Shown here: positions 3,988 to 35,965 of the stretch, in pieces
Layout: every line of letters starts with the position of its first letter
Numbering within the stretch: position 1 is the first letter of the stretch
Origin: a virus
Virus record (IMG/VR): IMGVR_UViG_3300042568_000311
Coordinates: 1 to 40,517 of that record
Length of the DNA: 40,517 nucleotides
Reading direction: 5' to 3' (one strand)
Made by a program: the position numbers and the translations under genes
Notes under the pieces: generated by a model
What the model was told of the DNA's origin: nothing
Databases searched by the model: none
What the model saw: the letters and a program-made list of their open reading frames with translations, nothing else

Positions 3988-6900
3988 TAATTACAATCTA
4001 TATTAAATTCAACCCCAATGTTTATTTTAAAATTAATTTCTAAATCTGATACCGAACAAACTTCATTATATATTATTACGGTATCATCATCGGTTAAAAG
4101 ATAACCATATCCGTAATCATTTAAAGAGTCCAAACCATTAATCAAAGCATCTTTCCATTGTGAACTTGTTGGTGTGCTAAGATTAACTATGTTATACCCA
4201 TACCCTGTAAAAAAAGATTCACTAACTAATACCACATCGTCAACTCTTAAATCAACATACCAAACAGAAGATAATGAATTGGTGTTACAATCATTTAACT
4301 CATATCCGTTTAACACCAAATAATTATTTAAAGTTGTACTTAAAACGTTATTAAACGATACCCCAGGATATAATCCGCATTCAGTAGATTCGACAGGACA
4401 ATCTTTAGCGAAAACATTAGTTTTAAATGAACAAGGTTCGCAAGGAACCGGAACTAAATTACAACCTCTTTGTCTTCTCCAAGCGAATTTTTGTCTATGA
4501 AAAATAGAGTTTTCAAATCTAGAACCTGTATTCCATATTGTACTTGCAGGCATCATTTGTTCTACAAGTCTAATCCAATAATCCCCAATACCATTAACAT
4601 ATTCTGTCATAGTTTCATAGTTAAAATTATTGTTCTCTATTCCAACATTTTGTTCTGATTGTAGATATTTCCAATATATTGACTCCAACGTAGGATATCC
4701 CATAGTCTTACCATTTGTCGCATATTGTCTATCTCTAACATTAATCATATTCTTCCAAAATGTCTGAGCAAATTCGAAAAATGTTTTTTGTTTTGGTTGT
4801 GGATTTATTATTGTTTCGTCAATAGGTTTATAAGGGTAAGGTGCGTTTAAACTTAATGGTGTTGATGTTCTTAAACTACTAAGTAATGACGGAACTACCG
4901 TTGATGGTGTGAAATCTAAACCTGAGTTTGGTATAGGGTAATTAAATTCTCTAGACATATACCAAATATCGTATAATATACCTTGAGACGGATTTAAAAA
5001 TAAATCAACATTTTTAACATTTAAAACTAGTCGTTCGTCTGCGGTATAATATAAAGCATTGTAATTACCATCAAGATTTCTTCTATATCCGTTTTCACTA
5101 TCAGTCCAACTTTTGTTATTATCAATTTGTTGTGTTAGAAAATAACCTAATTTCATATAAGGGAAATTTCTAAACCTATCTAAATAATCTTGACCATAAC
5201 TATATGGCGCTAATGATGTTTGATAATTGGGATTTGACCCCGTAAATACATTACCGGTAAGATTTAATTGTTCAGGAGCTCTGTGTTGTGGAGTTTGTTC
5301 AAACCATCCGCTACCTGATTGGAAAAAATACGTATCTGTTTCGGGCGGTGTTGATGGGTATCCAAATTCATCAATAGGGTAGTCACTTCTTTCTGAATCA
5401 GCACTTAAAACAACTTCCTCAGTAGTAAATCCTGTATATTGAACTCCGTAAATTGTAAAAACTTCACTAGGATTCAACACAGGTATTTCTTCAACATATG
5501 TTCCTCCTGATATTCTTGCGAACTGAGTTTCAAATTGTTGTAAATTTATTTTTTGATCAGCAACATAAACATACTCATTAAAATCTATTAAAGCTTCAGG
5601 CGCCCCTATCAATTTCAATAAAATTTCAACAGACTTTCTAGTTCCTTTTGATTTGAAGAGGTACGCCGAGTTTAATACCAAATTTCTATAAAACTGATAA
5701 TTTAATTCGTCAGGAGTTTTAGGTATTGGTTCACCACTAAACTGAGATTTTTCAGAATTTGTTGTTCCAAAGACTGAATTTAAAAAATCTTCAGAACTTA
5801 TAGGTGAGATATTTGTTGACCAACCTAATGTTTGTGCTAAATTTTTAAGTAACTGAGATGGTATATCATTTCCAACGTTATAATTAACAGAGTTCATATA
5901 GGCCAAAGCATTTACAAATTTTTGAGTTTCATCAAAACTCCTACCGTAAATTTGTAAAACTTTCTCCATTTTTCTACCTACCGTATCGAACTCACTAAAA
6001 GCTCCCGTAGTTAAAAATCTTGACACTAAATTAGTTCTAAAGGTATCGAAAAATTCGCAAGTTTCATTTAATTTAACCAGATAATCTTGGAAATAATTTG
6101 ACGTTATATCCAAATTCCAAAGTCCATTCAAAGGCCAAGTTATCCCTACTTTTTCAGTAAAATAAGTCCCTTCACTATTTTCTTTCGGTACATTAAAAAC
6201 TGCGGTGTATATTGGGAATGATGTTCTATTCAATAGAAAGTTTTCGACTTCATCTAAATTTTCTTTAAAAACTTTATTAACTTCATAGTCATTAGGTCTT
6301 ATTAATATATCATTTGTTACCGAACTTTGACCGGAAAAAGGGTCTCCTTCAACATAAATTTTTAAATCACCACTACTTAAAGATTGTGTTGGGACTATCC
6401 CTTTAACCTGATATCCTCCACCATTAAAATATAATGAGTATTTTGAATATTCGGCCGTCATATTTCTGAGGGACGAAACCTCAATCTCTCTTAGAGATAA
6501 ATTCCTATCCGAATTTACCGTGAAATCAATACCTAAAGGATTTCTTATTTTAGATACTTGTAAAATAAACGATGTTTCATTAGTTGTTTCATTAAATGAA
6601 ATATTTTCGGCCGTATTTCCCGTAGAATAATCCGCACCAAAAAAATTACACTCCAATCCCGCAGGGAATTGACTAATTATTACCGTTATTGACGCTGAAA
6701 CTCTTTTAGATAGAGACCCATAAACCGTAAAATTTGTAACCTCACTTAAATCAAAATTTGGATAAACTTTAAAATTATTTTCAGCAATTGCTTTAGATTG
6801 ATTTACACTATCAATATTAAGTTTTTCAAGATTTATTGGTTCTGAGAAAACGCCTGTTATAAAATTCCTATTAGTTTTTTCACTAACAGATTGGGTAAAT

Positions 6901-7019
6901 TCAAAATTTCCTTGCGTAAGACCTCCTCCTTGAACTAGTTGTAGTCCTACTAAATTATCAGAAAATGTTCCTTTTCCCGAAGGTGTCTGGGGTGGGCAAG
7001 TATATTTATTATTCGCCAT
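3987..7019 (-). CDS. Baseplate wedge protein, gpI/gp7-like
   Basis: The 1010-residue protein contains, at about residues 373-490, a segment resembling the P2 gpI family: PSQLLKNLAQTLGW, then RNLVLNSAYLFKSKGTRKS followed by VEILLKLIG. In T4 the gpI counterpart is within gp7 (about 1030 residues), which joins gp6 in the wedge; the similar length fits. The N-terminal third is beta-rich and carries no recognisable domain. Near residue 860 the sequence changes to a Cys-rich stretch with CEPC followed by a small C-terminal domain. The gene overlaps its upstream neighbour through TAATG and hands over to the adhesin through another TAATG. The gpI-like core is a fair call from motif memory; exact equivalence to gp7 is inference. 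Confidence 0.6.
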   Translation of the reverse strand: MANNKYTCPPQTPSGKGTFSDNLVGLQLVQGGGLTQGNFEFTQSVSEKTNRNFITGVFSEPINLEKLNIDSVNQSKAIAENNFKVYPNFDLSEVTNFTVYGSLSKRVSASITVIISQFPAGLECNFFGADYSTGNTAENISFNETTNETSFILQVSKIRNPLGIDFTVNSDRNLSLREIEVSSLRNMTAEYSKYSLYFNGGGYQVKGIVPTQSLSSGDLKIYVEGDPFSGQSSVTNDILIRPNDYEVNKVFKENLDEVENFLLNRTSFPIYTAVFNVPKENSEGTYFTEKVGITWPLNGLWNLDITSNYFQDYLVKLNETCEFFDTFRTNLVSRFLTTGAFSEFDTVGRKMEKVLQIYGRSFDETQKFVNALAYMNSVNYNVGNDIPSQLLKNLAQTLGWSTNISPISSEDFLNSVFGTTNSEKSQFSGEPIPKTPDELNYQFYRNLVLNSAYLFKSKGTRKSVEILLKLIGAPEALIDFNEYVYVADQKINLQQFETQFARISGGTYVEEIPVLNPSEVFTIYGVQYTGFTTEEVVLSADSERSDYPIDEFGYPSTPPETDTYFFQSGSGWFEQTPQHRAPEQLNLTGNVFTGSNPNYQTSLAPYSYGQDYLDRFRNFPYMKLGYFLTQQIDNNKSWTDSENGYRRNLDGNYNALYYTADERLVLNVKNVDLFLNPSQGILYDIWYMSREFNYPIPNSGLDFTPSTVVPSLLSSLRTSTPLSLNAPYPYKPIDETIINPQPKQKTFFEFAQTFWKNMINVRDRQYATNGKTMGYPTLESIYWKYLQSEQNVGIENNNFNYETMTEYVNGIGDYWIRLVEQMMPASTIWNTGSRFENSIFHRQKFAWRRQRGCNLVPVPCEPCSFKTNVFAKDCPVESTECGLYPGVSFNNVLSTTLNNYLVLNGYELNDCNTNSLSSVWYVDLRVDDVVLVSESFFTGYGYNIVNLSTPTSSQWKDALINGLDSLNDYGYGYLLTDDDTVIIYNEVCSVSDLEINFKINIGVEFNIDCN

Positions 7020-7943: not shown

Positions 7944-9119
7944 TTATTCATTTATTATATTAAAAAACTTATACCCATATTTGGTTAAATCTCCAACATT
8001 ATCAACTTCTCCCAATCTTTGCAAACTTTCAAGTGCCGATATTTTACCTCTTTCAACCATTACATCACTTTGAATTAATGGTTCGTCAATAACATTTAAT
8101 AAAACCTCGTCTTTGGTTATTGCGGAACAAATTAACATATCTTGAGTATAACCGGATGATGATACCTCAAAAATTGTAGTTCCTCCTGAATAATCCTTAT
8201 ATGAAATGTCGTTTATTGTATATGATGTATAAGAATTATCTGAAGAAGGTCCGAAGAATGTACCAATACACCCTGAAGTTCCGGTAACTTGTATACCGAG
8301 TTTAAATTTACCAGCATATAAACTTGTTTTAGGTCCATATTGTTGTAAATCATTAACGGATGATGTTGTATATCCCGTAACTAAAAATGGTACCGTGGTA
8401 TAGTTACTACTAATTTGTGAGTCCGCATCACAATACGAATCTCCTGTAAAAATATAGTCGTAATTAACAGGTGTTGCCGACCAGTTACCCCCTTGAGGAT
8501 AAAAGGTTGCGGTTCCGTATGGGTTTGATATAACCGCATCTGTAAATGGTACTATTATATCTTTTTTTATTATATTAACCCCCCAAGGACTTACCCCCGA
8601 AAAGGTTATTGTAAAATTACCATTAGATCCGTAAGTATGGATATAATAATCAGGTGATGAAGTGGTTATTGTCTGTATTGGCGTTCCGTCACCCCAATCT
8701 AAATTAAAATCACTAAATTGTAAGTATTTTTTATCACTATCATAAGTGTTGTAAAAATAGTAAGTGTAAGGGTCTATAGTTGTTGATGAAAATAAAAAAT
8801 TTAACATCGTATCTTTTTGTAAAACCGCCCCATCAAAAACACTATAATAACCCAAATCAATTGTTTCTTGAGTTAATAATATAGGTATTGTTAACCCTGT
8901 TAACAATGATGTTTGTCCCGTCCCTCCCGATAAAACTTGCGTCATCGATGAATACACATAAGTTATACCAGTATACTTTGAGGTTGTGGTTGTTGTAACT
9001 ATATCACAACAAGGGTCATCAATAATATTAGGAAATATTTCACCATAACTATAAGTTACAGGATAAATAGTATTAACAACTTCAGGTGATATTTTTATAT
9101 AATATTTTCTATCTTCCAT
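7944..9119 (-). CDS. Tail protein with PKD-like domain
   Basis: The 391-residue protein has a PKD-type motif around residues 135-185: FNLDWGDGTP followed about 17 residues later by YIHTYGSNGNFTITFSG, matching the WxFGDG...HxYxxxGxYxVxL pattern of PKD domains, which are Ig-like folds in surface proteins. Before it, DPCCDIVTTTTTTSKY is a Cys pair plus a six-Thr run that looks like a linker. The C-terminal part (about 335-391) is more helical and polar. The gene starts on TAATG with the stop of its upstream neighbour. A fibre, fibre-attachment or baseplate decoration role is inferred from the domain and position. Confidence 0.7.
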   Translation of the reverse strand: MEDRKYYIKISPEVVNTIYPVTYSYGEIFPNIIDDPCCDIVTTTTTSKYTGITYVYSSMTQVLSGGTGQTSLLTGLTIPILLTQETIDLGYYSVFDGAVLQKDTMLNFLFSSTTIDPYTYYFYNTYDSDKKYLQFSDFNLDWGDGTPIQTITTSSPDYYIHTYGSNGNFTITFSGVSPWGVNIIKKDIIVPFTDAVISNPYGTATFYPQGGNWSATPVNYDYIFTGDSYCDADSQISSNYTTVPFLVTGYTTSSVNDLQQYGPKTSLYAGKFKLGIQVTGTSGCIGTFFGPSSDNSYTSYTINDISYKDYSGGTTIFEVSSSGYTQDMLICSAITKDEVLLNVIDEPLIQSDVMVERGKISALESLQRLGEVDNVGDLTKYGYKFFNIINE

Positions 9120-9949
9120 TAAGGATTAACATATTCATACCATTTTATGGGTTGAGTTGTTCCGACTCTATTGTTTGAATAATTAAAAACTTTATAAGTT
9201 TTTTTCGCTTTATCTAAAACAACTTTATAATAAAAGTATCTATCGGGTCTAAAGTTAAATTTATCCGATAAAGATGATTGTGGGGTGGTCATCATTTTCA
9301 CATACTCCCCTCTTCTTGCGTCAAAAAATTTTGCGGTCATATAGAAAGTATTAATATTTAAAAATCCACTATCTCTTAACCAATATATAAAAAAACCTTC
9401 TTTATCACCAATAAAATCCAAATTAAAATAAGGTTTCTTTATTTTAACGGGTGGTTTGTAAGTTGAGATTGTTTTAGTTTCAGTATCTCCTTGTTGTGTT
9501 GGTAATATTATCGTTAGATAATTAGTCTGTTTAGCGCTATCCGCACTATCATAAAAATCCAATTTAAAAAATGATTTTGTGAAAGGTTTTTCAAAATAAT
9601 ACACTTGTGAGGTTGAGAACCCGTCGCTAACATAACTATCAAAAACATAACTATTAACCCAATTTGAGGGTGATGTTGAAGCTGTCACAGGTGATGTTAT
9701 ATTATAAAAATTAAATTCGTATTTTATTTTTGTTAATGTAACAGGTTCAGCCCCGTTAGTGTAAGGATCGTGAGAATATCTACTAACCTCAAAATCTTCA
9801 GGAGCACCAACTATTTCTGTTACTACTTGGTCTTCATAAATTTCAATTAAATCGTCTTTACCCAAATAATCCCATTTTAACTCTATAGGAATATTAAAGG
9901 CGGTATCACCACTAGGTAAAGTAAAATAATATTTATCATTCACAATCAT
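9119..9949 (-). CDS. Tail/baseplate protein, unrecognised
   Basis: The 276-residue protein begins MIVNDKYYFTLPSGDTAFNI and is rich in Tyr, Phe and beta-strand-type sequence with no signal peptide or membrane segment. I see no catalytic motif and recognise no family. Its ATG lies 14 bases inside the end of the upstream gene and its stop overlaps the next start as TAATG, so it belongs to the same translationally coupled run of tail genes. A structural role in the outer baseplate is the simplest reading. Confidence 0.7.
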   Translation of the reverse strand: MIVNDKYYFTLPSGDTAFNIPIELKWDYLGKDDLIEIYEDQVVTEIVGAPEDFEVSRYSHDPYTNGAEPVTLTKIKYEFNFYNITSPVTASTSPSNWVNSYVFDSYVSDGFSTSQVYYFEKPFTKSFFKLDFYDSADSAKQTNYLTIILPTQQGDTETKTISTYKPPVKIKKPYFNLDFIGDKEGFFIYWLRDSGFLNINTFYMTAKFFDARRGEYVKMMTTPQSSLSDKFNFRPDRYFYYKVVLDKAKKTYKVFNYSNNRVGTTQPIKWYEYVNP

Positions 9950-11675
9950 CTATCGTAGGTTCGGCTATTATTGTCTGTTCATTATAATTAGTTCCTTCCG
10001 GTATTATTCTAAAAATAATATTAGTAAAAGGATAATGTTTACCATTTAAAAATGGATAATTAACCCCAATAAAATCACTATCAATAAAACCATAAGAGTA
10101 TATGTCTCTCCAAATAAATTTTTGTACGGTTGTTGAATAATATGAGTAATTAGGTATGTTAACTCCTGTTGTATCTCCCTCTTCAATATATGGTGAAAAC
10201 ACTCTAAGAGTTATTGGGTGATGTGGTTGATAATAATATCCTAAAGGGTTTGTGGGAATCACAGAATTAATTTTAAAATGTGTCCCGTTGAAAGTGAATT
10301 TATGATATATTTTTGATAACACTCTTTCTTGTTGTTCATAATCATTCCACTCGCAAAAATCGCCATCTATTAAATCCCCATTCTTTAAAGATTTATTATA
10401 TTTAAAAGGCCCTGAACCTAATGTTGTCGTATATGCGGATGTTTGTATTCCAGTATTTGACGCCGAAGATGGTGAACTTGTTTTATCCCACCAAATATTA
10501 GGTTGTAGGTTCGCAGGACTTAATGGTAAATTAAATTCCCAACCTTGTTTTAACCCGTCAGTCCATCCAAAATATCCAACCCAAATAGCGGTGAAAAATA
10601 ATTCCGTTATAGGTCTTTTTTGATTATCTAATAATTCACTAACGTCTATATCATTATTAAATGATAAAGTATAGGATTGTGAACCTTCAATTGTGGTTAT
10701 TTTTTCTTTATTGTCAGGTGTTAGTGACGCACTTTCATACTTTTTTTTAGTTCCAAATATATTTTGCTCAAAACCGGCCTTAACTAATATCGATTCAGAT
10801 AAATCTGTTAATATTTTATGTCTTTTAACGTAGTATTTTGAAGTGGTGTCTGTAGGATTATCTTTAACTACAACCCTTTTAGCTGTTCCGGTAACGTTAC
10901 TATTGAATGTTGTTCCCGTGTAACCAACGTTTATTATGTTAAAATAATATTCATCACTTCCTGAAGTTCCATTACCTAAAGAATCGATTTCAAATGTATC
11001 ATCACCGTCATAATCAATACTTAATTTAACCGCCTCTCCCACGGATAATCCGTGTTTAACAGGACATTTAAACGATATTATATTTATTCCATTCTCATTA
11101 CCCGTTTCAATTATAAATGGTATACCTTCAGAACAAATCCAATCAATTGTAACATTATTTTGATTTATATAGTATAATTTTCTTGTCGTTGAATTACTAA
11201 AAGGGTAGCTGAGAAAAAAATTCCAATTATAGGTTGACGCGCTTATATTTGAAAATTTTAAATGCTCGTCAGGTGGTTGTGTATACCCTTCAACATTATT
11301 ATCAGTTCTTATAAAGTCAAATTCATTATATAGTGGAAAACCGCTCCACGCAACACTTGGGTTAGGTGGACAAGAATCTATCGCAGATTGTTTAGCATTT
11401 ATATAGGATAAGTTATTCTCAAAAGGAGGGTAATTAGTAAAACCCGCGTACGAATTTTTAAATATCACACTAAATTTAGCCGCGGGTCTAAATATTGTCG
11501 ATTCTTGCCTTTCTTTGTCAAAAACATCCTGTAATCCGACAACAACACTTCTATCGTATTCGATTAAAAGTTTTGAAGTTTGAGCTAATGGTAATTTATA
11601 TTCGGAATCTTTTTTAGGCGCCGTTTTATACCTTAAATTAGGTAATACTATTCTATTTTCAAATCTGTTACCCAT
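9936..11675 (-). CDS. Tail/baseplate protein, unrecognised
   Basis: The 579-residue protein begins MGNRFENRIVLPNLRYKTAP and has aromatic-rich, beta-type sequence throughout (YPFSNSTTRKLYYINQ). There is no signal peptide, membrane segment or enzyme motif that I can identify. It follows the 1658-residue protein by one base and overlaps the next gene by 14 bases. Position downstream of gp6 and the giant membrane-segment protein would suit a wedge component such as T4 gp8 or gp10, but I see no sequence feature that proves this. Confidence 0.7.
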   Translation of the reverse strand: MGNRFENRIVLPNLRYKTAPKKDSEYKLPLAQTSKLLIEYDRSVVVGLQDVFDKERQESTIFRPAAKFSVIFKNSYAGFTNYPPFENNLSYINAKQSAIDSCPPNPSVAWSGFPLYNEFDFIRTDNNVEGYTQPPDEHLKFSNISASTYNWNFFLSYPFSNSTTRKLYYINQNNVTIDWICSEGIPFIIETGNENGINIISFKCPVKHGLSVGEAVKLSIDYDGDDTFEIDSLGNGTSGSDEYYFNIINVGYTGTTFNSNVTGTAKRVVVKDNPTDTTSKYYVKRHKILTDLSESILVKAGFEQNIFGTKKKYESASLTPDNKEKITTIEGSQSYTLSFNNDIDVSELLDNQKRPITELFFTAIWVGYFGWTDGLKQGWEFNLPLSPANLQPNIWWDKTSSPSSASNTGIQTSAYTTTLGSGPFKYNKSLKNGDLIDGDFCEWNDYEQQERVLSKIYHKFTFNGTHFKINSVIPTNPLGYYYQPHHPITLRVFSPYIEEGDTTGVNIPNYSYYSTTVQKFIWRDIYSYGFIDSDFIGVNYPFLNGKHYPFTNIIFRIIPEGTNYNEQTIIAEPTIDDCE

Positions 11676-11676
11676 C

Positions 11677-14600
11677 TTAATCTATTACATTATCACTATT
11701 TATCCATTTCCTATAAAATTTGTCAAATGAACTTCTACCTTTTTTAAGTCCAAAATAAAAATAATACGGAGCTCCTACCGTAATAACCCTTGGTAAGGGA
11801 TAATTACCGCTTTGTGAGTTAGGATTTGGGTCTAATTCTCCCGTTGAGGGGTTTCTTGAGAATATATATCCTTTAAAATAATCTGTAGTACTTCCATTAC
11901 CCCTAAAATACCTTGAGGATGCGTTGAGTCTATCTAAAGTCTGATACCTATAACTTAAAAACTTATTATCTATTTTATCAGAATACCATTCATTTTTTTG
12001 GGACCCAAAAATACTATCCCCTGAAGGATTTTGTTTAATCTCCCATTGATATAAAGGTATTTCTTGTGAAAAAGTTGGTATATTGTTAAATGAACATTGT
12101 TGTGTTATTGGTGCTGTAGTATCGATAATTTCTCTTCTTGGTGAAATAAAATCTCTAATTTGAGTATCTGATGAGAAAAATATTCCAAAAATTCCATCGC
12201 TAGAGTTACCATTATTAAAATATATAGGGTCTTGTCCTGTTGGATTGGTTGGATAATTTGCTGAATCAAATTCATTGACACCTAACTCGGAATTTATAGA
12301 AACCATTTGAGCGTAGTCAGCGTCAACAAATTTATTACTTCTACTAAAAAATCTAAGAATGTTAGTCCCTCCTATCATCTGACTTCCTATTGAGGTGTTT
12401 GCCAATCTAGATAAAACAAAAATATTAACAACATCTGAAACATCACCAAAAGTGGTTGTGTTTAGTCTGTTAAGAATATAACCATCATATTTATCGGAAT
12501 ATATAATTTCTTGTATATAGTTATTTCTAGGTCCCAAATCAATAATTGTTGTGGGATTTTTTAAATTTCTAATATTACCATCTTGTCCTGAAGATATTCC
12601 AATAAAATATTGTTCGCTGGCCCCCGAATAATAAGGGGTACTTCTGTAATAGAAGTTTTTATCATTATTATTAAGATAAATCATTTTAGTACAAATATCA
12701 CTATAAGGCTGATTGTTAGAATCAAAAAACCTTTCATTTTTAAATGAAGGTGCGTATAATGTACCGTTAATCCAATTATTTGTAAAAACGTGTGAAAAAA
12801 CATTTCTACACGCTGCGAATGTTATATTTGTTCTTGACATCCATTCGGTAAATAATTTAATATCGTCCACTATTGATAGAAATGGTCTGGTTACTATAAT
12901 ATAACATCCGTTATTAAAAATTTGTTTTCCCCCCATTTTTTGACAATCACCGTACTGAACATAAAACTCTCCATTTGAGTACCCATAACACCCCAAATTA
13001 ACACTTTTATCACAATTATTTAAACTTTCAACAACTTGACTATTTATTGCGGTTGTAGGGTCTCCGTCATAATTTCCAGGACTTGTTGATGGATTTGTTC
13101 CCGATATATTATTAGGAATAACCCCATCATCGGAAATTTTGTAAATTGTAAAGTTATCATTTTGTTGTAATAATAAAGACGTATCACAATTATCTATTTT
13201 ATTAGTCGATGTGGGTAATCTATCGGATCTCATAACAATTTTTCTTCCACTAATCCCCCCATCAAAGTACATTGGAGATGAAGTATCATATATTGGTGAT
13301 ATATAACCAGCATAAACTACAGGATTTAATGGTGACGTAGGATAAGGAATTGTTGCATCCATCATCATTAATGACCCCCCTTCAACTATTTCATTAATAT
13401 AATAACCTCTATTTTGGGTAGGCGTAAATATTATATTATTAAATTCAAATTTATAATATGTACAAGGAACCGTTTCAATAACGTTCCACTCTCTAGTAAA
13501 ATGATTGTTTATATTAACTCTAAGTCCATTAGAGCTTGTTTCCGCACCCGTAGATACCGATACAAAACAAGAGCACGATGGTGTAAATAAGGAATTATTA
13601 TTATCTAAATTAGAATAGTATTTTGGTAAAACACTATTAAATTGTAAGAAACTCGATGGTTGGTAATTAAAAGTATCATAATATAAATCCATATTTGAGT
13701 ATATGTCGTTGTCACTATTAGTGGCTAAACTATGTCTCACATTTTTAAATCCTCCGTTTATAGGTATATTTAACTTATAATTTCCTCTAAATTTAATAAA
13801 ACCAAAATTAGAATAACCAAATATTTTACTTAAATCATATTCAATATCGACTCTAGTTGAATATGGGTCTACCCCTCTTACCAGAAATAAAACTATCTGT
13901 TGTTGATACTCGGTATAGGACGTTAAAGGGTTATCGCTAGTATCTGTAACACAATTATTATTTGATGGGTTAGAATCGATATTAAGTCGATTAATCCTCA
14001 TATCATTATTAAGATATCTCTTGTTTAACGAATTATCTAACGATGTGTCACATTGAGAATTAAAATCGCTATATGTCATTGCGGTGATTACTTGAAAATA
14101 CTCAATGTCTGAAGGATATTTGCTGTAATTCGTGTCATTAGGGTTTGGCGGAGGGATTTGATAGGTAACACTGCCAGTTATCCCATTAGATTTTACATAA
14201 TTTATATTTATGTTTGTGTTATTTAAAGATGTCCCAGTAACCGCGTTATTACTAAAAGCGTTTTGGGTGGATCCGGTTAAATTCTTATCGGTACTTAAAT
14301 CAGGGTTTTGGAATGTCATTATCATTCCGGGGCTAATATAATCAATACTATATTTATCTAAAAGAATAACTAAAACATTATCGGTATGATAATCATTAGG
14401 GTCAGGATTTAATGTCGGTTCTATTCTAACTTTAATCTGGTTAACCCCCCCACCAGGATTTGTTGGCGAATTTTCGAAATATTTCGCCTTTGTGTTAAAT
14501 AAATTTATTCTTTCGGGTAATGTTAAACTACTACTAAAATAATAATATTGGTCAGAACCCAAAGAACCTTGATATATGTAGGGTATTTTTGTTTCACAAC

Positions 14601-16653
14601 TAGGTATTGTTGTGGTTGGGTATCCTCCTAACACGTTGTTAGTATTATTAATATTTTGATTCGCGGTTCCTTGATTATATGATGAACTATTAAAACTTAA
14701 AATTGTGATGGTCTCTAAATCGGTATTTAAATTAACACCACTAGGTATAAAATCGGAAGGGGTATTTATTGTTGGAGCACTTATTGAGGGGGAGTCGGAA
14801 CAATTACAAAATTCACATTGATCATATAATAATAATGGAATATTCAAACCCGACAATTTAGCGTCTTGTAATTTTTGGTAAAGTGCCACCAATCCAACCG
14901 CAACACCTATTTTAAAAACCCCACTAGCTAAAATATTCAAACCTAATAATAATGTCTGAAAATTAAAAGTGACAACAGGACCTGCTGGACTTATCCCTGT
15001 TGCCCACGCGGATGCTATTGTTGTTCCTCCATCAATTATCGATTGTACTCCCAAATATAGAAAAAAGGCGGCAACAATAATTCCAAAATTTTTAATAATA
15101 TCTAAGATAAAAAAAACTACGTGTATTACAAGTATTAAAGGTATTGCGAGTACTCTAGTAACTAACATTAGTAGTTGAAATAATAGAAATAATATATCAC
15201 TCCTATATACTGAGTCGTTTGTCGGGAACTTATTATGTTCGCTTTCACATCTATCATCAAGAACGTTTTTTATAGATACAAATCTATTTGGTAATGTTCC
15301 TGTTCTAAACCTATCAATCATTTGAGATACCGTATACACTTTATTATATACCATAGGGTAGAATGTGTCTTCGCAATCAATTGCCGATTGTGTGTCAGCA
15401 TAATCATCCCAATCAAGACTAAAAGAATAAGATTTTTGTTGTAAATTTACATCCACAGAATTTCCTGCGGAATCCCAACCATATTCTCTAATATTCGGTA
15501 CTAAAAAATACCCTCTTTTTATGTTTTCAGATAAAGATGGTGATTGATTCCATTTTACTTTAAATCTATATTTAGCAGTTGTTGGTACACCTATTTTTGG
15601 ATCGTTTGAGATTACTCTTTCTCCGAACTCATTTGTTGTTATATAATCCATATTCATTGGTATATCTAACAACCAAGTTCCGTCTTCATCTATTACTTGA
15701 CCCCCATTGTCCAAATCAAAACTTTCAAGTATTGGTCTACCATTTGAATCATCGAATATTGTTTGTCTTATCGCCAAAATTTGTCCGGGTCCTGCAACTA
15801 AATTACATAACTCACCTTGTTTAAATTTTGGTTTACAATTTTTTCTTAATGACAATGTTTCTAAGTCGGATATCATCGACCCCATAAAAATTGCTGTAGG
15901 TTGTATTGTAATATTCAATTCTTCAGATAAATCAAAATCAACTCTAGTTATACCTAAATTACATACTTCGGGTTGTCCCCATAACGGCTCAACATTTGTT
16001 TGTTTATCAATTGTTACAATTTGCGGTAATCTAGATAAATTAGACGCGGTTTTAAATTTAGTACCGGCGACTTGTTCTTCATTAGCAACACCAACCCTGA
16101 TTAAATCTTGTGGTGATTGTGAAAATTCTCCAATATCAGACAAGTCAACATCCATATGAATTTGTTGTTGTCCTACAGGAACACCAAAAATCATAAAATC
16201 ACCACTATCATTCGTTACTGAAGTATATTTATAATATTTGTCAAAAACCTCAATTATTGTTTGGTTAGTTAGTACTTCATCTTTTGTAAAAAAACTACCT
16301 GTCGGTGAATGTTCACTATATGATTTAACTTTAGGTAGGAGATTATATCTATAACCATCATCATTAGTATCCGTTAATTTTTTATAAGGATATAATTCGG
16401 TTATTACTGGATTGTTTTCATCTTCATCGGTTAATGGAACAAAGATAGAAACTTTAGAGTTAGGTATTCCAAACCCTCCATTAGTCGTAACTCTACCTAT
16501 AACAACTCCGTAATCTGAACATTGTCTTGTATAAATGTCTGTTTGACTAATTTTAAAAGACAAAACTTCTAAAAACTCAAAATCTTGGTCTAATAATACT
16601 TTAATTGATTTGTCCTTACCTACTTCGGTTCTAACCCTATATGAATTTGACAT
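11677..16653 (-). CDS. Giant baseplate-region protein with membrane-like segments
   Basis: The 1658-residue protein has an N-terminal region (about 47-172) resembling a carboxypeptidase-regulatory or transthyretin-like fold: GVVIGRVTTNGGFGIPNSKV, then DSGDFMIFGVPVGQQQIHMD. Residues 486-592 form a strongly hydrophobic block with three or four membrane-type segments (about 486-519, 523-541, 566-592), followed by a Cys cluster CEFCNC at 613-618. The long C-terminal two thirds are Asn/Ser/Tyr-rich and look like virion structural sequence. It is the next gene after gp6, where T4 has gp7, but the gpI/gp7-like core is found in a different gene here. Hydrophobic blocks of this kind are not known from T4 wedge proteins; a role in contacting or crossing the host envelope is inference. 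An 81-base gap with a possible promoter precedes it. Confidence 0.7.
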   Translation of the reverse strand: MSNSYRVRTEVGKDKSIKVLLDQDFEFLEVLSFKISQTDIYTRQCSDYGVVIGRVTTNGGFGIPNSKVSIFVPLTDEDENNPVITELYPYKKLTDTNDDGYRYNLLPKVKSYSEHSPTGSFFTKDEVLTNQTIIEVFDKYYKYTSVTNDSGDFMIFGVPVGQQQIHMDVDLSDIGEFSQSPQDLIRVGVANEEQVAGTKFKTASNLSRLPQIVTIDKQTNVEPLWGQPEVCNLGITRVDFDLSEELNITIQPTAIFMGSMISDLETLSLRKNCKPKFKQGELCNLVAGPGQILAIRQTIFDDSNGRPILESFDLDNGGQVIDEDGTWLLDIPMNMDYITTNEFGERVISNDPKIGVPTTAKYRFKVKWNQSPSLSENIKRGYFLVPNIREYGWDSAGNSVDVNLQQKSYSFSLDWDDYADTQSAIDCEDTFYPMVYNKVYTVSQMIDRFRTGTLPNRFVSIKNVLDDRCESEHNKFPTNDSVYRSDILFLLFQLLMLVTRVLAIPLILVIHVVFFILDIIKNFGIIVAAFFLYLGVQSIIDGGTTIASAWATGISPAGPVVTFNFQTLLLGLNILASGVFKIGVAVGLVALYQKLQDAKLSGLNIPLLLYDQCEFCNCSDSPSISAPTINTPSDFIPSGVNLNTDLETITILSFNSSSYNQGTANQNINNTNNVLGGYPTTTIPSCETKIPYIYQGSLGSDQYYYFSSSLTLPERINLFNTKAKYFENSPTNPGGGVNQIKVRIEPTLNPDPNDYHTDNVLVILLDKYSIDYISPGMIMTFQNPDLSTDKNLTGSTQNAFSNNAVTGTSLNNTNININYVKSNGITGSVTYQIPPPNPNDTNYSKYPSDIEYFQVITAMTYSDFNSQCDTSLDNSLNKRYLNNDMRINRLNIDSNPSNNNCVTDTSDNPLTSYTEYQQQIVLFLVRGVDPYSTRVDIEYDLSKIFGYSNFGFIKFRGNYKLNIPINGGFKNVRHSLATNSDNDIYSNMDLYYDTFNYQPSSFLQFNSVLPKYYSNLDNNNSLFTPSCSCFVSVSTGAETSSNGLRVNINNHFTREWNVIETVPCTYYKFEFNNIIFTPTQNRGYYINEIVEGGSLMMMDATIPYPTSPLNPVVYAGYISPIYDTSSPMYFDGGISGRKIVMRSDRLPTSTNKIDNCDTSLLLQQNDNFTIYKISDDGVIPNNISGTNPSTSPGNYDGDPTTAINSQVVESLNNCDKSVNLGCYGYSNGEFYVQYGDCQKMGGKQIFNNGCYIIVTRPFLSIVDDIKLFTEWMSRTNITFAACRNVFSHVFTNNWINGTLYAPSFKNERFFDSNNQPYSDICTKMIYLNNNDKNFYYRSTPYYSGASEQYFIGISSGQDGNIRNLKNPTTIIDLGPRNNYIQEIIYSDKYDGYILNRLNTTTFGDVSDVVNIFVLSRLANTSIGSQMIGGTNILRFFSRSNKFVDADYAQMVSINSELGVNEFDSANYPTNPTGQDPIYFNNGNSSDGIFGIFFSSDTQIRDFISPRREIIDTTAPITQQCSFNNIPTFSQEIPLYQWEIKQNPSGDSIFGSQKNEWYSDKIDNKFLSYRYQTLDRLNASSRYFRGNGSTTDYFKGYIFSRNPSTGELDPNPNSQSGNYPLPRVITVGAPYYFYFGLKKGRSSFDKFYRKWINSDNVID

Positions 16654-16699
16654 TTACTTAATAATCTTTTTTTTGATAAATAGTTTATGACCTATTTTT

Positions 16700-16731
16700 C
16701 AAAAATATAGTTTACGATTTAATAAAATAAA
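16700..16731 (-). promoter_or_regulatory. Possible promoter before the giant baseplate-region gene
   Basis: The 81-base gap between gp6 and the next gene holds TATTTTTG (16707-16700), an exact fit to the Bacteroidetes -7 element TAnnTTTG, with TTTA (16731-16728) 20 bases upstream, one mismatch from the -33 TTTG. A start site would fall about 40-45 bases before the ATG. In DNA this AT-rich such matches can occur by chance. This is the longest gap in the leftward tail module, which gives some support. Confidence 0.3.
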
Positions 16732-16734
16732 TTA

Positions 16735-18573
16735 TCAGGAGAAATTAACGGATTTTAGATTTTTAACTCTAATGTTAATATCTCTACTTGGAAATCTCAC
16801 TTGATATATTTGTGTTGGTTCCGCGAAAATCGTATCGTCTATTAACTCTATTTGTTTTGTTGCCGGGTTAGAATATCTTTGAGATGTTTGAGATGATGAG
16901 TATTGTCCTCCTACATTATTAAAAACTGAAATGTCTGATAAAGATATTACCCCGTTTTCACTTTGTATTTGTCTTCTTAATTCTGATATATTAACGTTTT
17001 TACCTAATTGCATATTGTCGGGTGAAAAATAATTAGTAACAAGATTGACAACACTTGATATTACGTTTCCTTGGTTTTGAGTGTTATCTAACACAATATC
17101 AATACCTAATGATAAATCAATAACTTTTGCGGTTTCAACTGAGATATAATCATTCATCATTCTATAATTAGATAAATAATTAGCAATATTACTTTTTAAA
17201 GTGTTTGAAACAATGTCTGTTAATACCCCATTTTCATCAAATGAAAGAATTTTTATTTTAATTTTATTATCTTCTTCAACAATAGCCACTTTAGCCGGAG
17301 CTCCGAATTGGGATGGCATTGTTCTTAAAATAGAATCGTAATCATTAACCGTAACTGCTCTATTTTGAGACGCGAAATTAAAACTAACTAAATTTCTAAT
17401 TTCTTCAAGTGTCGGTAAACCCGCACCCCCAATAGCTGCCGTCACATTATTACACCTTAAAGAATTGACAACATTAGCATTTACGCTTGTTGATGGTCCG
17501 TTTACAAAAAATGATACGGTTCCAATTTGAGTTATAACATTAACCCCTAAATTACTTGTAGTTCCTCCACCAATTCTATATTGAATGAATAGTGTTGAGT
17601 TAGGTTTTAGGGTACTGCCTAAGGCGAAATTATTTGAATATTTATATAAATCTAATTTATATCCGTTTCTCGCGAACTCTCTTAATTGTTCGTCAGCAGA
17701 TTGTGAACCGCCGCCAAAAGTTAGTTTACAAAAACCTTCAGGTGTATATTCGGTAATGAATTTATTATTCGCCGTTACGTATTTTCCAACTTTAATACCC
17801 GGATTGTCAGATGTTTTTGTAGGATCTTCAATAAAAACTCTATCTTCAGCAAGAGCTTTAACTTCGTACCACCTGTTCTCGGTATTTAAAAATTCTTGCG
17901 AATTAGGAACGTTCGCGTATTGTGTCCCATCCTTCAATATTACACTTGTTACACCTAAAACATTTTTTTCGGGTAAAAAAAGTTCGTAAAATGGTTTAAC
18001 TTCTTGTGGGGTAATAACTTTCTTAAATACTTTAGTAATCCCATTAACAACGGTTTCTCTTTTAGTTATCGTATAATTAACCAATCTATTAAAACTATCA
18101 AAATTTGGTATTTTTACTCTATTTGGATATCCTTCAGCGTTTGTTGGTGAAGTAAAGTCAATATCGTATACGGTTTCAAAAACTTGTCCTGCCCCAATAA
18201 CTTGAGATCCTCTTCGTAAAAGACCACAATACCTTAAATCCTCAGCATCACCATTTGCCGGAACCGTTATCGAAAAATCAACTAACGCGACTGATGGTCT
18301 TTGTCCGGGTATCTTTAATCCGTAAGTTCTTGCGATATTATATACTGAAGATTTTTGTTGTGCGTATTGTAGTACCGTTTCTTGTATACTCCTGTCAATA
18401 TTAAATTGTAGATTATCTGTTACCGCAGCATTTAAATCAATTAAAACTGAAAATATCGAGGCGTCATTGAAATTTTCTACTACTTCAGGATAATAAATTT
18501 TTGTAAAATTTATTAATTCTGTTCTTATGGAATCAAAATCTCTTGTAGTGTAGGATATTTTTTTATTTGCCAT
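16735..18573 (-). CDS. 6: Baseplate wedge protein gp6 (gpJ-like)
   Basis: The 612-residue protein begins MANKKISYTTRDFDSIRTEL and has the gpJ/gp6 N-terminal pattern: an early YTTRDFDSIR, then NFNDASIFSVLIDLNAAVTDNL and a block with IARTYGLKIPGQRPS. In contractile tails gp6 dimers join gp7 into the wedge ring around the hub and drive sheath contraction. Length is close to T4 gp6 (about 660). It follows gp25 by five bases, the usual gp25-gp6 partnership, since gp25 links the wedge to the first sheath ring. This is one of the firmest calls in the window. Confidence 0.88.
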   Translation of the reverse strand: MANKKISYTTRDFDSIRTELINFTKIYYPEVVENFNDASIFSVLIDLNAAVTDNLQFNIDRSIQETVLQYAQQKSSVYNIARTYGLKIPGQRPSVALVDFSITVPANGDAEDLRYCGLLRRGSQVIGAGQVFETVYDIDFTSPTNAEGYPNRVKIPNFDSFNRLVNYTITKRETVVNGITKVFKKVITPQEVKPFYELFLPEKNVLGVTSVILKDGTQYANVPNSQEFLNTENRWYEVKALAEDRVFIEDPTKTSDNPGIKVGKYVTANNKFITEYTPEGFCKLTFGGGSQSADEQLREFARNGYKLDLYKYSNNFALGSTLKPNSTLFIQYRIGGGTTSNLGVNVITQIGTVSFFVNGPSTSVNANVVNSLRCNNVTAAIGGAGLPTLEEIRNLVSFNFASQNRAVTVNDYDSILRTMPSQFGAPAKVAIVEEDNKIKIKILSFDENGVLTDIVSNTLKSNIANYLSNYRMMNDYISVETAKVIDLSLGIDIVLDNTQNQGNVISSVVNLVTNYFSPDNMQLGKNVNISELRRQIQSENGVISLSDISVFNNVGGQYSSSQTSQRYSNPATKQIELIDDTIFAEPTQIYQVRFPSRDINIRVKNLKSVNFS

Positions 18574-18578
18574 ATTAG

Positions 18579-19022
18579 TTAAATATTGATAATTACAAAA
18601 TCGCTAGCGTTAAATACACTATCAGTAATGATGTAATCTATTTTTATTTTTGCGGTATGTTCTTTAATACCTATATTTGGAACGGTATATACTCTTTCTC
18701 CATTGTCAACATAAGTCCCTTTATTTTCCTCATCCTCTGAAGCATCTTTTATTTCAATACTCGTTATTGTCATATTTGGTATATACTCTGAAACACTATC
18801 TCTAATTTCAGACTCTAATTGTGAAAATGTTGGTCCGTCTAATGGTTCAAAAATATATTCATATAATCTTGTTCCGAAATCAGGTAAATAATACCTTGTA
18901 CCCTTTCTAGTTAGTAATAAATGAACAAGATTTGACCTTATTTCCTCGTCTTGCGAATCCGATAAATCAAAATATGTTCCAACAAAAGAATCTCTAAATG
19001 GGAAGTTTATTCCGTAACTCAT
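18579..19022 (-). CDS. 25: Baseplate wedge protein gp25 (GPW/gp25 family)
   Basis: Starting at the ATG at 19022 the protein is 147 residues (T4 gp25 is 132) and begins MSYGINFPFRDSFVGTYFDL. The family signature is clear: EEIRSNLVHLLLTRKGTRYY followed by LPDFGTRLYEYIFEP, containing the conserved pattern around the EPR-type helix, then a beta-rich C-terminus. gp25 connects the gp6-gp7 wedge to the sheath and nucleates sheath assembly. A longer in-frame start at 19118 would overlap the nrdA end and run through its terminator hairpin, so the internal ATG is preferred. It is the first gene after that terminator. Confidence 0.88.
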   Translation of the reverse strand: MSYGINFPFRDSFVGTYFDLSDSQDEEIRSNLVHLLLTRKGTRYYLPDFGTRLYEYIFEPLDGPTFSQLESEIRDSVSEYIPNMTITSIEIKDASEDEENKGTYVDNGERVYTVPNIGIKEHTAKIKIDYIITDSVFNASDFVIINI

Positions 19023-19055
19023 AACTATTATTTTATTATAAATATAATATAATAC

Positions 19056-19094
19056 AAAAAATCCCGACATTATGTCGGGATTATTGTCGGGATT
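19056..19094 (-). terminator. Rho-independent terminator after nrdA, with duplicated stem arm
   Basis: On the minus strand a perfect 10-base-pair stem (AATCCCGACA / TGTCGGGATT, arms at 19082-19073 and 19069-19060, 3-base loop) is followed at once by a run of T (six As on the plus strand, 19056-19061). A second exact copy of the left arm lies just upstream at 19094-19085, overlapping the nrdA stop codon (19095-19093). The second copy could pair with the same right arm through a longer loop. Position between nrdA and gp25 marks the end of the replication/nucleotide transcription unit. Confidence 0.85.
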
Positions 19095-21522
19095 ATGATG
19101 AACATCCAAAACATTCAAATTCAGAATCTTTTGGTTTTTCAGGTAGATTCATTTTTGAGAAATCTACTTTAGGTTTTTCTATCGTTTTAGGTTTTTCAAC
19201 TTTAGATATATCAACCGCTAAGTGTTTTGCTCCCGTTGAAATTGCCTTTGTTCTAACATAATAACAAAGTGTTTTTAATCCTTTCTCCCAAGCGTGGAAG
19301 TGGGATGATGTTATTTTAGATATTGACGGATTCCCCATATAAATGTTCATTGATTGTGATTGGTCAATGAATGGGGCTCTGTCAGCCGCCATATCAATAA
19401 GTTCTCTTTGTGATATCTCCCAAATTGTTTTGTATTTAGGAATTAAATGCTCAATTCTCTTAACTTTCTTATGGTAATTTTTTTCTTCAGTATCCAAATA
19501 CTTGTTAAAGTTAATATTTTGAATTGACCCTTCATTTAATATAATTTCATTTTTTAAATCTTCACACCAAATTCCAAGTTTTTCAAAATCATTAATTAAA
19601 TATTTGTTAACAATCATAATTTCACCACCAACAACTCTACGATTAAAAATTGCCGAATGAGCCGGTTCTGTCATCTCATATGAACCTGTTATTTTAGCAG
19701 AACTCGCCACAGGCATTTGAGCCGTAAATAATGAGTTACAAACTCCATACTTTTTAACATTTTCTTTTAAATCCTCCCAAGGCCATCTTCCCGATAAATC
19801 TTGTTCTTTTAATCCCCACATATCAAACTGAAATACTCCTTTTGACATAGGTGAACCTCCAAAGAATTCATAAGGTTTATAGTTACCATCAATACAAAGT
19901 TTATTACTTTCTGAGATTGATGCGAAATAAATTGTTTCAAATATTTCTTTATTTAATTTACGAGCCTCATCGGAAGTAAACTTATAATCCATAATATAGA
20001 ATACGTCAGCCAAACCTTGTGTACCAATCGCAATAGCTCTTTGTTCAAGTCCACCTTTTCTACCTTTTTCTGTTGAGTAATTGTTAATATCGACAACTTT
20101 GTTTAAAGCTCTAACCACTTTTCTTGTTTCGTTATAAAGTAAGTTAAAATCAAATTTACCGTCAATAATAAAGTTCTTTAATACCATAGATGATAAAGTA
20201 CAAATAGCGGTTGTTCTTTCATCAGTATATTGATAAATCTCATTACATAGGTTTGATTGTTTAATTACACCTATATTTTGATGATTCGTCTTATTGTTTG
20301 CATTATCTTTAGAACATAAATAAGGAACACCTGTTTCTACTTGAGATTCTACTACTTTAGACCAAACATCTTGAGCTTTAACTTTCTTACCCAACCCCAT
20401 AGAAACCGCCTTGTCGTAATTTTCTTCATATTCTTGACCATAACATTCTTGTAGTGGTTTTATTCCCGCTCTTTTAATGTCGTTAGGACAAAACAAATAC
20501 CAATCAGAATTATTTTTAACCGCCCTCATAAAATTATCAGGAATCCAAAGTGCGGTAAATAAATCTCTCGCTCTTAATTCTTCGGCTCCCGTATTCTTTT
20601 TAATGTCTAACAAATCGAAAATATCTTTATGCCAAGGTTCTAAATAAATCGCGGCACTTCCAGGTCTTCTACCTTGTTGATTAAAGAATCTTAGTGATTC
20701 ATTAACTATTTTAAGATATTTTAAAAGACCTCCCGCAAAACCTCCTGATGATGATATTCTACTTTCTTTACTTCTTATATTAGACATAGATAAACCAATA
20801 CCTGCCGCGTCTGATGAGTATGTTGATATATCATTTAAGGTGTGTAATAATCCTTCTCTTGAATCTGAATTGTTATAATGTAATACACAAGAAGCTAATT
20901 GCGGAACTTTTGTTCCTGAATTAATCATTATTGGTGTTGCTGGTGAAATTAACTGATTAGATAATGAATTATAATAATCAACCGCCTCTTCAAATGTTTT
21001 AGTTACCCAAACCGCAACTCTCATATACATATGTTGAGGTCTTTCAACAACTTTACCATTTGGTAATTTTAAAAGATACATTTCTTGTAATGATCTCCAA
21101 GCAAAATAATCAAAATTATAATCGTTTTCGTGATTAATTACCTCATCAATCTTTTCTTTACCATAAAGAACCATAGTATCAATAAATTCATCATTAAGAA
21201 TTCCACTACGATGTAATTCCATCATAGTATCGTAAAAACTTGGATTAGTTTCTTTATGATAAGACGAAATCGCTACTGACGATGCTAGTCTTGAATAGTC
21301 GTGATGACTTCCAGTGTAAGCGGCGGCGATTTCATACACCAACTTGTCAAGTTCTTTTGTGGTGATACTACCTTCGACCGGTACTGATGTTATTACTTTA
21401 ATAAAAATCTCATCAGAATTAACACTAAGACCTTTTGAGGATCGTTTAATTCTATTATAAATCTTTTGTGGATTGAATGAAACTTCGTCCCCTGCTCTTT
21501 TTTTAATCTTCAATGACATCAT
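19093..21522 (-). CDS. nrdA: Ribonucleoside-diphosphate reductase large subunit (class Ia)
   Basis: The 809-residue protein reduces ribonucleotides to deoxyribonucleotides with NrdB. Residues 1-95 form an ATP-cone (allosteric overall-activity domain), beginning LKIKKRAGDEVSFNPQK. The active-site set is present: C212 (ASCVLHY), N424-C426-E428 (SNLCNEI) with the thiyl-radical cysteine C426, and C441 (TAICTLSS). The Tyr pair that relays the radical is visible in LCYYVRT. The C-terminus ends CFGCSS, a CxxC shuttle pair as in eukaryotic-type large subunits rather than the E. coli form. A GGAGG Shine-Dalgarno lies upstream and nrdB ends two bases earlier. All key residues seem intact, so it is probably functional. 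Confidence 0.96.
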   Translation of the reverse strand: MMSLKIKKRAGDEVSFNPQKIYNRIKRSSKGLSVNSDEIFIKVITSVPVEGSITTKELDKLVYEIAAAYTGSHHDYSRLASSVAISSYHKETNPSFYDTMMELHRSGILNDEFIDTMVLYGKEKIDEVINHENDYNFDYFAWRSLQEMYLLKLPNGKVVERPQHMYMRVAVWVTKTFEEAVDYYNSLSNQLISPATPIMINSGTKVPQLASCVLHYNNSDSREGLLHTLNDISTYSSDAAGIGLSMSNIRSKESRISSSGGFAGGLLKYLKIVNESLRFFNQQGRRPGSAAIYLEPWHKDIFDLLDIKKNTGAEELRARDLFTALWIPDNFMRAVKNNSDWYLFCPNDIKRAGIKPLQECYGQEYEENYDKAVSMGLGKKVKAQDVWSKVVESQVETGVPYLCSKDNANNKTNHQNIGVIKQSNLCNEIYQYTDERTTAICTLSSMVLKNFIIDGKFDFNLLYNETRKVVRALNKVVDINNYSTEKGRKGGLEQRAIAIGTQGLADVFYIMDYKFTSDEARKLNKEIFETIYFASISESNKLCIDGNYKPYEFFGGSPMSKGVFQFDMWGLKEQDLSGRWPWEDLKENVKKYGVCNSLFTAQMPVASSAKITGSYEMTEPAHSAIFNRRVVGGEIMIVNKYLINDFEKLGIWCEDLKNEIILNEGSIQNINFNKYLDTEEKNYHKKVKRIEHLIPKYKTIWEISQRELIDMAADRAPFIDQSQSMNIYMGNPSISKITSSHFHAWEKGLKTLCYYVRTKAISTGAKHLAVDISKVEKPKTIEKPKVDFSKMNLPEKPKDSEFECFGCSS

Positions 21523-35649: not shown

Positions 35650-35965
35650 AATATAAAAAATGATTGTCTAATTGATTGTTGTAATCTTGTAATGAAGTTA
35701 TTAAAGGAAATGGAATAGTCAATACTGACCCGTCAGGAATATTCCATTCTCTACCTCCAAATTTTGGGTTGGCCATTAATATCAACCATCCGAATGTTGG
35801 TGTGTTATAATATTGTTGAGATATTATATCCAATCTACTTTGTCCCACCTTATAAATGTATTTCTTATCTGTGGTTTTAATCGGTAAATTAATATATGGT
35901 ACTACGGTTTGGTTTCCGTTTATAAGAAATTCATTATATCTCTGATATGATTGTCTTTTTGCCAT
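35639..35965 (-). CDS. 53: Baseplate wedge protein gp53-like (LysM-like)
   Basis: The 108-residue protein begins MAKRQSYQRYNEFLINGNQT and has a LysM-like core: KYIYKVGQSRLDIISQQYYN, then FGWLILMANPKFGGREW and IPDGSVLTIPFP. This matches the LysM-type fold of T4 gp53 (about 196 residues), which clamps neighbouring wedges around the hub. The protein is shorter than T4 gp53 and looks reduced to the core. It overlaps its upstream neighbour through TAATG and the hub gene by 11 bases, so all three are translationally coupled, consistent with joint assembly. Confidence 0.75.
   Translation of the reverse strand: MAKRQSYQRYNEFLINGNQTVVPYINLPIKTTDKKYIYKVGQSRLDIISQQYYNTPTFGWLILMANPKFGGREWNIPDGSVLTIPFPLITSLQDYNNQLDNHFLYYGR

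Follow-up and report, generated by a model that had tools for sequence, protein, structure and literature searches.

The tail-knob protein gp9 of phage phi29 has internal loops that leave the particle after genome release and form a hydrophobic barrel of helices, by which the membrane is penetrated (PMC6542822), and a similar step has been proposed for phage Andhra (PMC9710869). Other virion proteins with access to the inner membrane, the tape measure protein of lambda and gp16 and gp20 of P22, are in conflict with membrane proteins of the host or of prophages: SNIPE acts close to the lambda protein and ManYZ (PMC13190303), and in P22 the conduit is blocked by SieA (PMC10883804). How the DNA of contractile phages crosses the last membrane has yet to be settled, and the phages of Bacteroidota have been little studied. 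In T4, the large baseplate protein gp7 is encoded directly after gp6. It has one membrane-like segment of 19 residues (886-904, mean 2.07), carries a note of a predicted integral membrane domain in its RefSeq record, and is reported as a monomer in solution among the isolated wedge proteins (PMC3004832); a single segment of this kind can therefore be buried.

The stretch of DNA analysed here (the window) comprises 40,517 nt, positions 1 to 40,517 of the IMG/VR record IMGVR_UViG_3300042568_000311. The genes of its baseplate cluster referred to below are as follows.

18579-19118, minus strand: gp25-like baseplate wedge protein, preceding gp6
16735-18573, minus strand: gp6-like baseplate wedge protein (PHROG baseplate wedge and Pfam Baseplate_J)
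11677-16653, minus strand: a protein of 1658 aa, here called BIG, encoded after gp6 and present as a single copy in each of the seven large relatives searched (129-322 kb)
9936-11675, minus strand: a protein of 579 aa (g579), the next gene after BIG, conserved, function unassigned
3987-7019, minus strand: a protein of 1010 aa, a better gp7-like candidate, matching large proteins of Microcystis phage Mel-JY01 and Flavobacterium phage immuto

The preliminary description of this DNA had placed the BIG gene directly after gp6. This was borne out, with 82 nt between the two genes, and the position was kept in the cluster, for which the gene order gp25, gp6, BIG, g579, g276, g391, g302, the 1010-aa protein and an SprB-repeat protein, encoded downstream of BIG, was recurrent. 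Among the matches listed, the distance between gp6 and BIG was 100 nt or less in 139 of 157 loci, and 14 of the 157 had a gene between the two, the product of which combines N-terminal hydrophobic segments with an α/β-hydrolase core.

Relatives were collected in three scans of viral contigs, for which BIG itself, gp6 and a profile of BIG served as queries and which gave 7, at least 80 and at least 80 loci, respectively. The placement of the hydrophobic block was assessed in 114 relatives of at least 640 aa that differ from one another within residues 1-640, the comparison of 19-residue segments used 117 distinct relatives of at least 900 aa, and 108 were aligned for the residue and stripe analysis, copies with open 5′ ends and short and split copies having been dropped. 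The alignments comprised 43 full-length representatives (A1), 105 of 108 aligned copies (A2) and 92 of 101 aligned copies (A3). Counts across the family are not independent, because many of the loci are related and some overlap on the same contig.

No recognised relative of BIG was present in PHROGs, Pfam, the PDB sequences or the named phages, and two divergent relatives of BIG that were searched against the named phages gave no match. In a Foldseek search of viral models, the one true relative was a protein of Myoviridae sp. ctPuP5, uncharacterised and 34 % identical. Judged by titles and the openings of abstracts, none of the papers listed describes BIG or a block of this kind in a T4-type baseplate protein. 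BIG occurs throughout the family as a single copy, and the libraries searched contained no described relative of it.

BIG resembles T4 gp7 in being a large protein encoded directly after gp6 with membrane-like hydrophobicity, but T4 gp7 has one segment rather than a block of about 107 residues, and the two have no profile similarity: hhalign of the BIG profiles against T4 gp7 gave probabilities of 0.1-0.2 %. The claim in the preliminary description that segments of this kind are absent from known wedge proteins was contradicted by the segment of T4 gp7. No homology was detected between BIG and T4 gp7, T4 gp10 or the large proteins that Mel-JY01 and immuto encode a short distance after gp6. It was the 1010-aa protein that matched the latter two (E values of 3e-8 for Mel-JY01 and 2e-6 for immuto, from single comparisons), and these large proteins appear to be gp7-like by their size and position. 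BIG was thus rejected as a gp7-type wedge protein and is therefore regarded as an extra, lineage-specific component of the cluster.

The following parts of BIG were distinguished.

15214-16653, minus strand: residues 1-480 at the N terminus, where conservation is highest (mean majority fraction in stretches of 50 residues about 0.64-0.83; dN/dS over the pooled pairs 0.06)
15898-16563, minus strand: residues 31-252, β-sandwich weakly resembling transthyretin and carboxypeptidase regulatory domains (VIA-align, Pfam)
14878-15198, minus strand: hydrophobic block, residues 486-592 (hydropathy, shuffles, placement in the family)
15103-15198, minus strand: helix 486-517, with one polar stripe (D486, 493, R/K-500, 504 and H511) and otherwise hydrophobic (alignment)
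15121-15123, minus strand: H511, a histidine within the hydrophobic helix that 105 of the 108 aligned relatives share
15010-15195, minus strand: predicted 62-residue helix, residues 487-548 (AlphaFold2; 10-residue pLDDT means 64-93)
14962-15009, minus strand: predicted β-hairpin tip, strands 550-555 and 558-563 (AlphaFold2; poorly conserved beyond close relatives)
14866-14961, minus strand: predicted return helix, residues 565-596 (AlphaFold2; absent from the shortest relatives)
14866-15048, minus strand: residues 536-596, the fastest-evolving stretch of BIG (pooled dN/dS 0.48)
14800-14817, minus strand: CEFCNC, residues 613-618 (CxxCxC in 104 of 108 relatives)
11680-14799, minus strand: C-terminal region, residues 619-1658, mostly β in the model (structure-library searches)

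The hydrophobic block first noticed from the sequence corresponds exactly to residues 486-592 of the 1658-aa ORF (window 15198-14878). Three non-overlapping segments of 19 residues exceeded a Kyte-Doolittle mean of 1.6, namely 502-520 (2.84), 522-540 (1.90) and 574-592 (2.01), and all three were also favourable on the Wimley-White octanol scale. The other proteins of the window had at most one segment each that passed 1.6. The best mean over 107 residues was 1.64 in BIG; none of 10,000 shuffles that preserved its composition reached this value, the highest of them giving 1.01, which rules out chance or composition as the origin of the block; the best single 19-residue segment (2.84), taken alone, was reached in 19 of the 10,000. 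A 19-residue segment of at least 2.2 was present in 116 of 117 relatives of BIG and in none of 571 neighbouring products, representing eight gene families at the same loci. A 107-residue mean of at least 1.3 was found in none of 899 other ORFs of at least 150 aa, the median for BIG being 1.33. In a relative of 194 kb, of which 191 kb was covered and 161 ORFs of at least 100 aa were examined, no other listed ORF had a 107-residue stretch as hydrophobic as that of BIG, the ORFs listed being those of at least 450 aa or with a strong segment.

Among the matches listed, 113 of the 114 distinct relatives carried the block in place, scored as one or more segments between residues 440 and 680, even where identity was as low as about 34 %. 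The sole exception, L131, was a split gene, the second part of which carries the block. The shortest relatives had only about 45 hydrophobic residues, without the return helix, and in the distant relative L091, which was 34 % identical to BIG over residues 4-550, the block region contained one hydrophobic segment only and CxxC was not found.

AlphaFold2 modelling of residues 1-680 with 105 sequences (mean pLDDT 78.9) predicted β domains followed by a helix, a β-hairpin and a second helix. Three or four spans of membrane length had been proposed for the block; three segments do pass on hydropathy, whereas the model contains a 62-residue helix, a β-hairpin tip and a 32-residue return helix. The placement of the hairpin relative to the body of BIG is uncertain because residues 446-481, just before the block, were modelled at low confidence. 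Residues 31-252 gave VIA-align Z scores of about 5-6.5, and their best Pfam score, for PF13620, was 21.7 bits, below the cut-off of 32.3. The model of residues 596-1658 (pLDDT 82.7) was mostly β. For this C-terminal part the best VIA-align Z was 2.2, a search in which families beyond the library may still match, and Foldseek found nothing among the viral models; against the PDB, Foldseek gave no convincing whole-domain match for BIG. The best structural look-alike of the hairpin was AhlB, a component of an α-pore-forming toxin (Z 8.8, 3.2 Å over 83 residues), at a level below that trusted for helical hairpins, which can reach such scores through their common arrangement. Only the hairpin of BIG aligned with the helical-bundle fold of the AhlB/ClyA type. 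BIG differs from the lambda and P22 proteins in being mostly β and encoded in the wedge cluster, and identity as a tape measure protein was rejected, as the models are mostly β outside the block and not long helical.

The polar residues of the first helix were unevenly distributed. When helix 486-517 was divided into nine sectors of 40 degrees, seven were 75-97 % apolar with at most 4 % charged residues, His, Asn or Gln, and the two remaining, neighbouring sectors formed one stripe containing D486, R/K-500 and H511. Tested relative by relative, the hydrophobic moment of this helix was significant in 87 of 106, and sequence entropy over helix 487-516 had no helical period (p 0.47). Residues 518-548 had no polar face in the aligned relatives. 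A narrow stripe with greasy sides all round is what is expected of a membrane-embedded oligomer. It corresponds to an inside-out helix, with the polar face towards other helices or a lumen and the rest towards lipid, the reverse of the broad polar face of a soluble amphipathic helix. The cysteine cluster reported after the block was confirmed as CEFCNC; C613, C616 and C618 were conserved in 108, 107 and 104 of the 108 aligned relatives, and three relatives without the third cysteine had an extra one about seven residues upstream of the motif. This conservation suggests a metal site or disulfides that might clamp the base of the hairpin.

Conservation was lowest within the block, where the mean majority fraction was 0.20-0.35 compared with 0.64-0.83 upstream. 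The hydrophobicity of the block, rather than its sequence, is under selection. In 19 close pairs, hand-picked from 118 pairs with gp6 identity of at least 0.90, pooled dN/dS was 0.48 for residues 536-596 (95 % interval over pairs 0.31-0.67), 0.17 for residues 486-535 and 0.06 for residues 1-480; it was below 1 everywhere in BIG. Residues 1001-1060 formed a second fast spot, and the N-terminal part was kept nearly as tightly as gp6. Loci L121 and L123, with 98.8 % DNA identity over 16.5 kb, were 59 % identical in residues 536-596 and 98-100 % identical in the rest of BIG. Uncorrected pN/pS of the tip was about 1 or more in four of the 19 pairs (0.99 in L121/L123, 0.97 in L151/L156 and 1.17, from nine changes, in L070/L080; L105/L106 had 10 non-synonymous changes, its synonymous count before correction being close to 0). 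For the tip, clear positive selection was rejected in view of the pooled value, the pair L030/L060 with zero amino-acid changes there and two pairs with fewer than 10 sites in this stretch (L047/L049 and L041/L048), and the tip may be under relaxed constraint.

Allelic exchange was also seen. Compared with the window, L004 and L005 were near identical in gp6 and residues 1-250 of BIG and carried a different allele from about residue 300 to 1600, of which the block, at 53 % identity, was the most divergent part; the genes after BIG in L004 were again 97-99 % identical to those of the window. A chimeric assembly is unlikely, because the two contigs came from different metagenomes and were 100 % identical to each other over 5766 nt. 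Evolution that retains hydrophobicity and is otherwise free, together with a variable tip, fits a membrane hairpin, the tip of which may meet something that varies from host to host or that hosts attack.

The reading that we favour, tentatively and with a probability of roughly 0.45, is that BIG is a baseplate-associated virion protein whose hairpin enters a host membrane at infection. It is favoured because of the known targeting of virion proteins at the inner membrane, the phi29 and Andhra precedents and the properties of the block; presence in the virion, copy number, release of the hairpin and membrane entry are the parts that we infer. The conserved residues 1-480 probably dock on the gp6/gp25 wedge, and about six or more copies of BIG would therefore surround the tail tube. 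In the free virion the helical hairpin would be held back, and the change in baseplate shape would release it. Having entered a host membrane, it would point its polar stripe and H511 at other helices or at a lumen, and its greasy faces at the lipid. Inserted hairpins could then anchor the baseplate or line a hole for the tube or the DNA. With BIG in the wedges, the outer membrane would be the nearer target, and with BIG at the hub, the inner one. It is improbable, though conceivable, that a ring of hairpins released by contraction forms an α-helical collar in a host membrane, with a His-bearing inner stripe and a tip that evolves fast because it meets membrane proteins of hosts or prophages, making this baseplate component a hot spot of specificity and exclusion at DNA entry. 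If BIG is present in virions, the range of membrane-active tail elements would extend to baseplates of the T4 type, and this within an aquatic group that is abundant. The element has the build of a membrane hairpin and the evolution of a host contact, in a group that is apparently very common and uncultured.

Delivery to a membrane, or a channel, had already been proposed in the preliminary description. That proposal is strengthened by a block that is real and family-wide, by the selection on its hydrophobicity, by the polar stripe and by the gp25-gp6 cluster, and weakened by the T4 gp7 precedent and by another candidate channel protein: the 194-kb relative encodes a separate 638-aa protein with two hydrophobic segments, which might be the tape measure or channel protein instead. 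Pfam PhageMin_Tail (PF10145) was found in none of the seven large relatives. A straight helix of 62 residues is too long for one bilayer, and this counts against membrane entry of the hairpin. It would suit a hydrophobic helix bundle buried within the baseplate or where BIG copies meet, with no lipid involved and the stripe as a packing interface, as AlphaFold2 predicted a long straight helix and not bilayer-sized pieces. The T4 gp7 segment in a soluble monomer (PMC3004832) is in line with such a core, as is the (gp6)2-gp7 wedge of phage XM1 with its core bundle of helices (PMC10457771). We consider a buried core somewhat unlikely, since all faces but one stripe are greasy over 30 residues in 108 relatives and residues 518-548 lack any polar face. 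A core packed against conserved partners would be expected to be conserved itself, yet the block is the least conserved part of BIG, and none of the 571 neighbouring cluster products carries such a segment.

BIG could instead reside in the inner membrane of the host during morphogenesis, serve there as the platform on which the baseplate is assembled, and be absent from the virion or only passive in it. A segment this hydrophobic is expected to reach the membrane co-translationally, and membrane functions do occur at this spot, since 14 of the 157 loci encode the protein with hydrophobic segments and a hydrolase core between gp6 and BIG. The approximately 1500 residues outside the block nevertheless resemble virion material (β-rich and of no enzyme family), the N-terminal part is as constrained as noted above, and a fast-changing tip is unexpected for a pure platform, all of which makes this role unlikely. 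The exchange of alleles between near-identical flanks and the fast spot at residues 1001-1060 would also be compatible with an adhesin or specificity factor, in which the tip and residues of about 600-1250 bind the host surface or a membrane protein and the block is a mere linker. A linker need be neither greasy nor equipped with a conserved histidine, dN/dS stays below 1 throughout, and the downstream SprB-repeat protein is a better adhesin candidate, so that we regard this role as very doubtful. The phi29 precedent, for its part, differs in kind from the membrane hairpin proposed for BIG, because the tail of phi29 is short and non-contractile and the gp9 loop is rich in Gly, Ala and Ser and not strongly hydrophobic; the best 75-residue mean was 0.38 for that soft loop and 1.76 for BIG, where it has no match.

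The hosts are probably Bacteroidota, because SprB repeats are encoded downstream of BIG, because the contig carrying L091 belongs to a Paludibacteraceae MAG from yak rumen and because gp6 is similar to that of Flavobacterium phage immuto, among others. Moraphages were described as aquatic jumbo phages with gp25, gp6, a contractile tail and predicted Bacteroidota hosts (PMC12619734). BIG is unmentioned in the sections of that paper that were consulted, and the word 'transmembrane' does not occur in its main text. Likened by description, the two share large size, aquatic origin, gp25, gp6, a contractile tail and the predicted hosts, and the phages encoding BIG possibly belong to the same group as the moraphages.

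Part of BIG, the 1658-aa baseplate-region protein encoded after the baseplate wedge gene gp6, is exchanged as a recombination cassette. When two related loci from the viral-contig scans (L004 and L005) were compared with window positions 9000–19118, BIG residues ~300–1600 were found as a swapped allele, and the genes flanking the swap were 97–100 % identical. A second fast-evolving stretch of BIG was located at residues ~1001–1060 (window ~13474–13653), where dN/dS pooled over 19 hand-picked close pairs of BIG relatives reached up to 0.45.

Among the matches listed, 14 of 157 loci carried a gene between gp6 and BIG whose product (~300 aa) combined hydrophobic segments at its N terminus with an alpha/beta-hydrolase core; the core showed a GHSxG-type serine motif and a possible Asp and His. 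Four of these loci are named here, with further ones among the 14 (coordinates within locus):

L052:10894-11808, ~300-aa hydrolase-core protein, between gp6 and BIG
L104:2992-3903, ~300-aa hydrolase-core protein, between gp6 and BIG
L114:4640-5566, ~300-aa hydrolase-core protein, between gp6 and BIG
L143:8020-8913, ~300-aa hydrolase-core protein, between gp6 and BIG

Of four copies scanned, one (L052) passed the Pfam DUF900 cut-off. For a baseplate cluster, a membrane-anchored lipase or esterase would be unusual. At one locus, the gene between gp6 and BIG (L108:2409-3605) encoded a 398-aa protein with TnpB-like zinc-finger motifs.

L177 encodes a protein of 638 aa (L177:13339-15255, corresponding to 146339-148255 of a 194-kb relative) that contains two segments of strong hydrophobicity and is possibly a tape measure protein overlooked by family models. 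Its only family match was a weak one, to an Rz-like spanin; the adjoining gene, presumably gp5-like by its appearance, had no family match.

Other genes of the window were:

1576-3987, 803-aa protein, SprB repeats (Pfam, E 1e-23)
35965-40515, 1516-aa protein, incomplete where the window ends, weak OmpA-like match below cut-off (E 0.005)
353-1333, PHROG 4417 protein of unknown function (E 3e-75), beside tail genes

SprB repeats occur in Bacteroidota gliding adhesins, and the 803-aa protein is probably a tail-fibre or adhesion protein. The PHROG 4417 protein also gave a weak nucleotide-diphospho-sugar transferase match.
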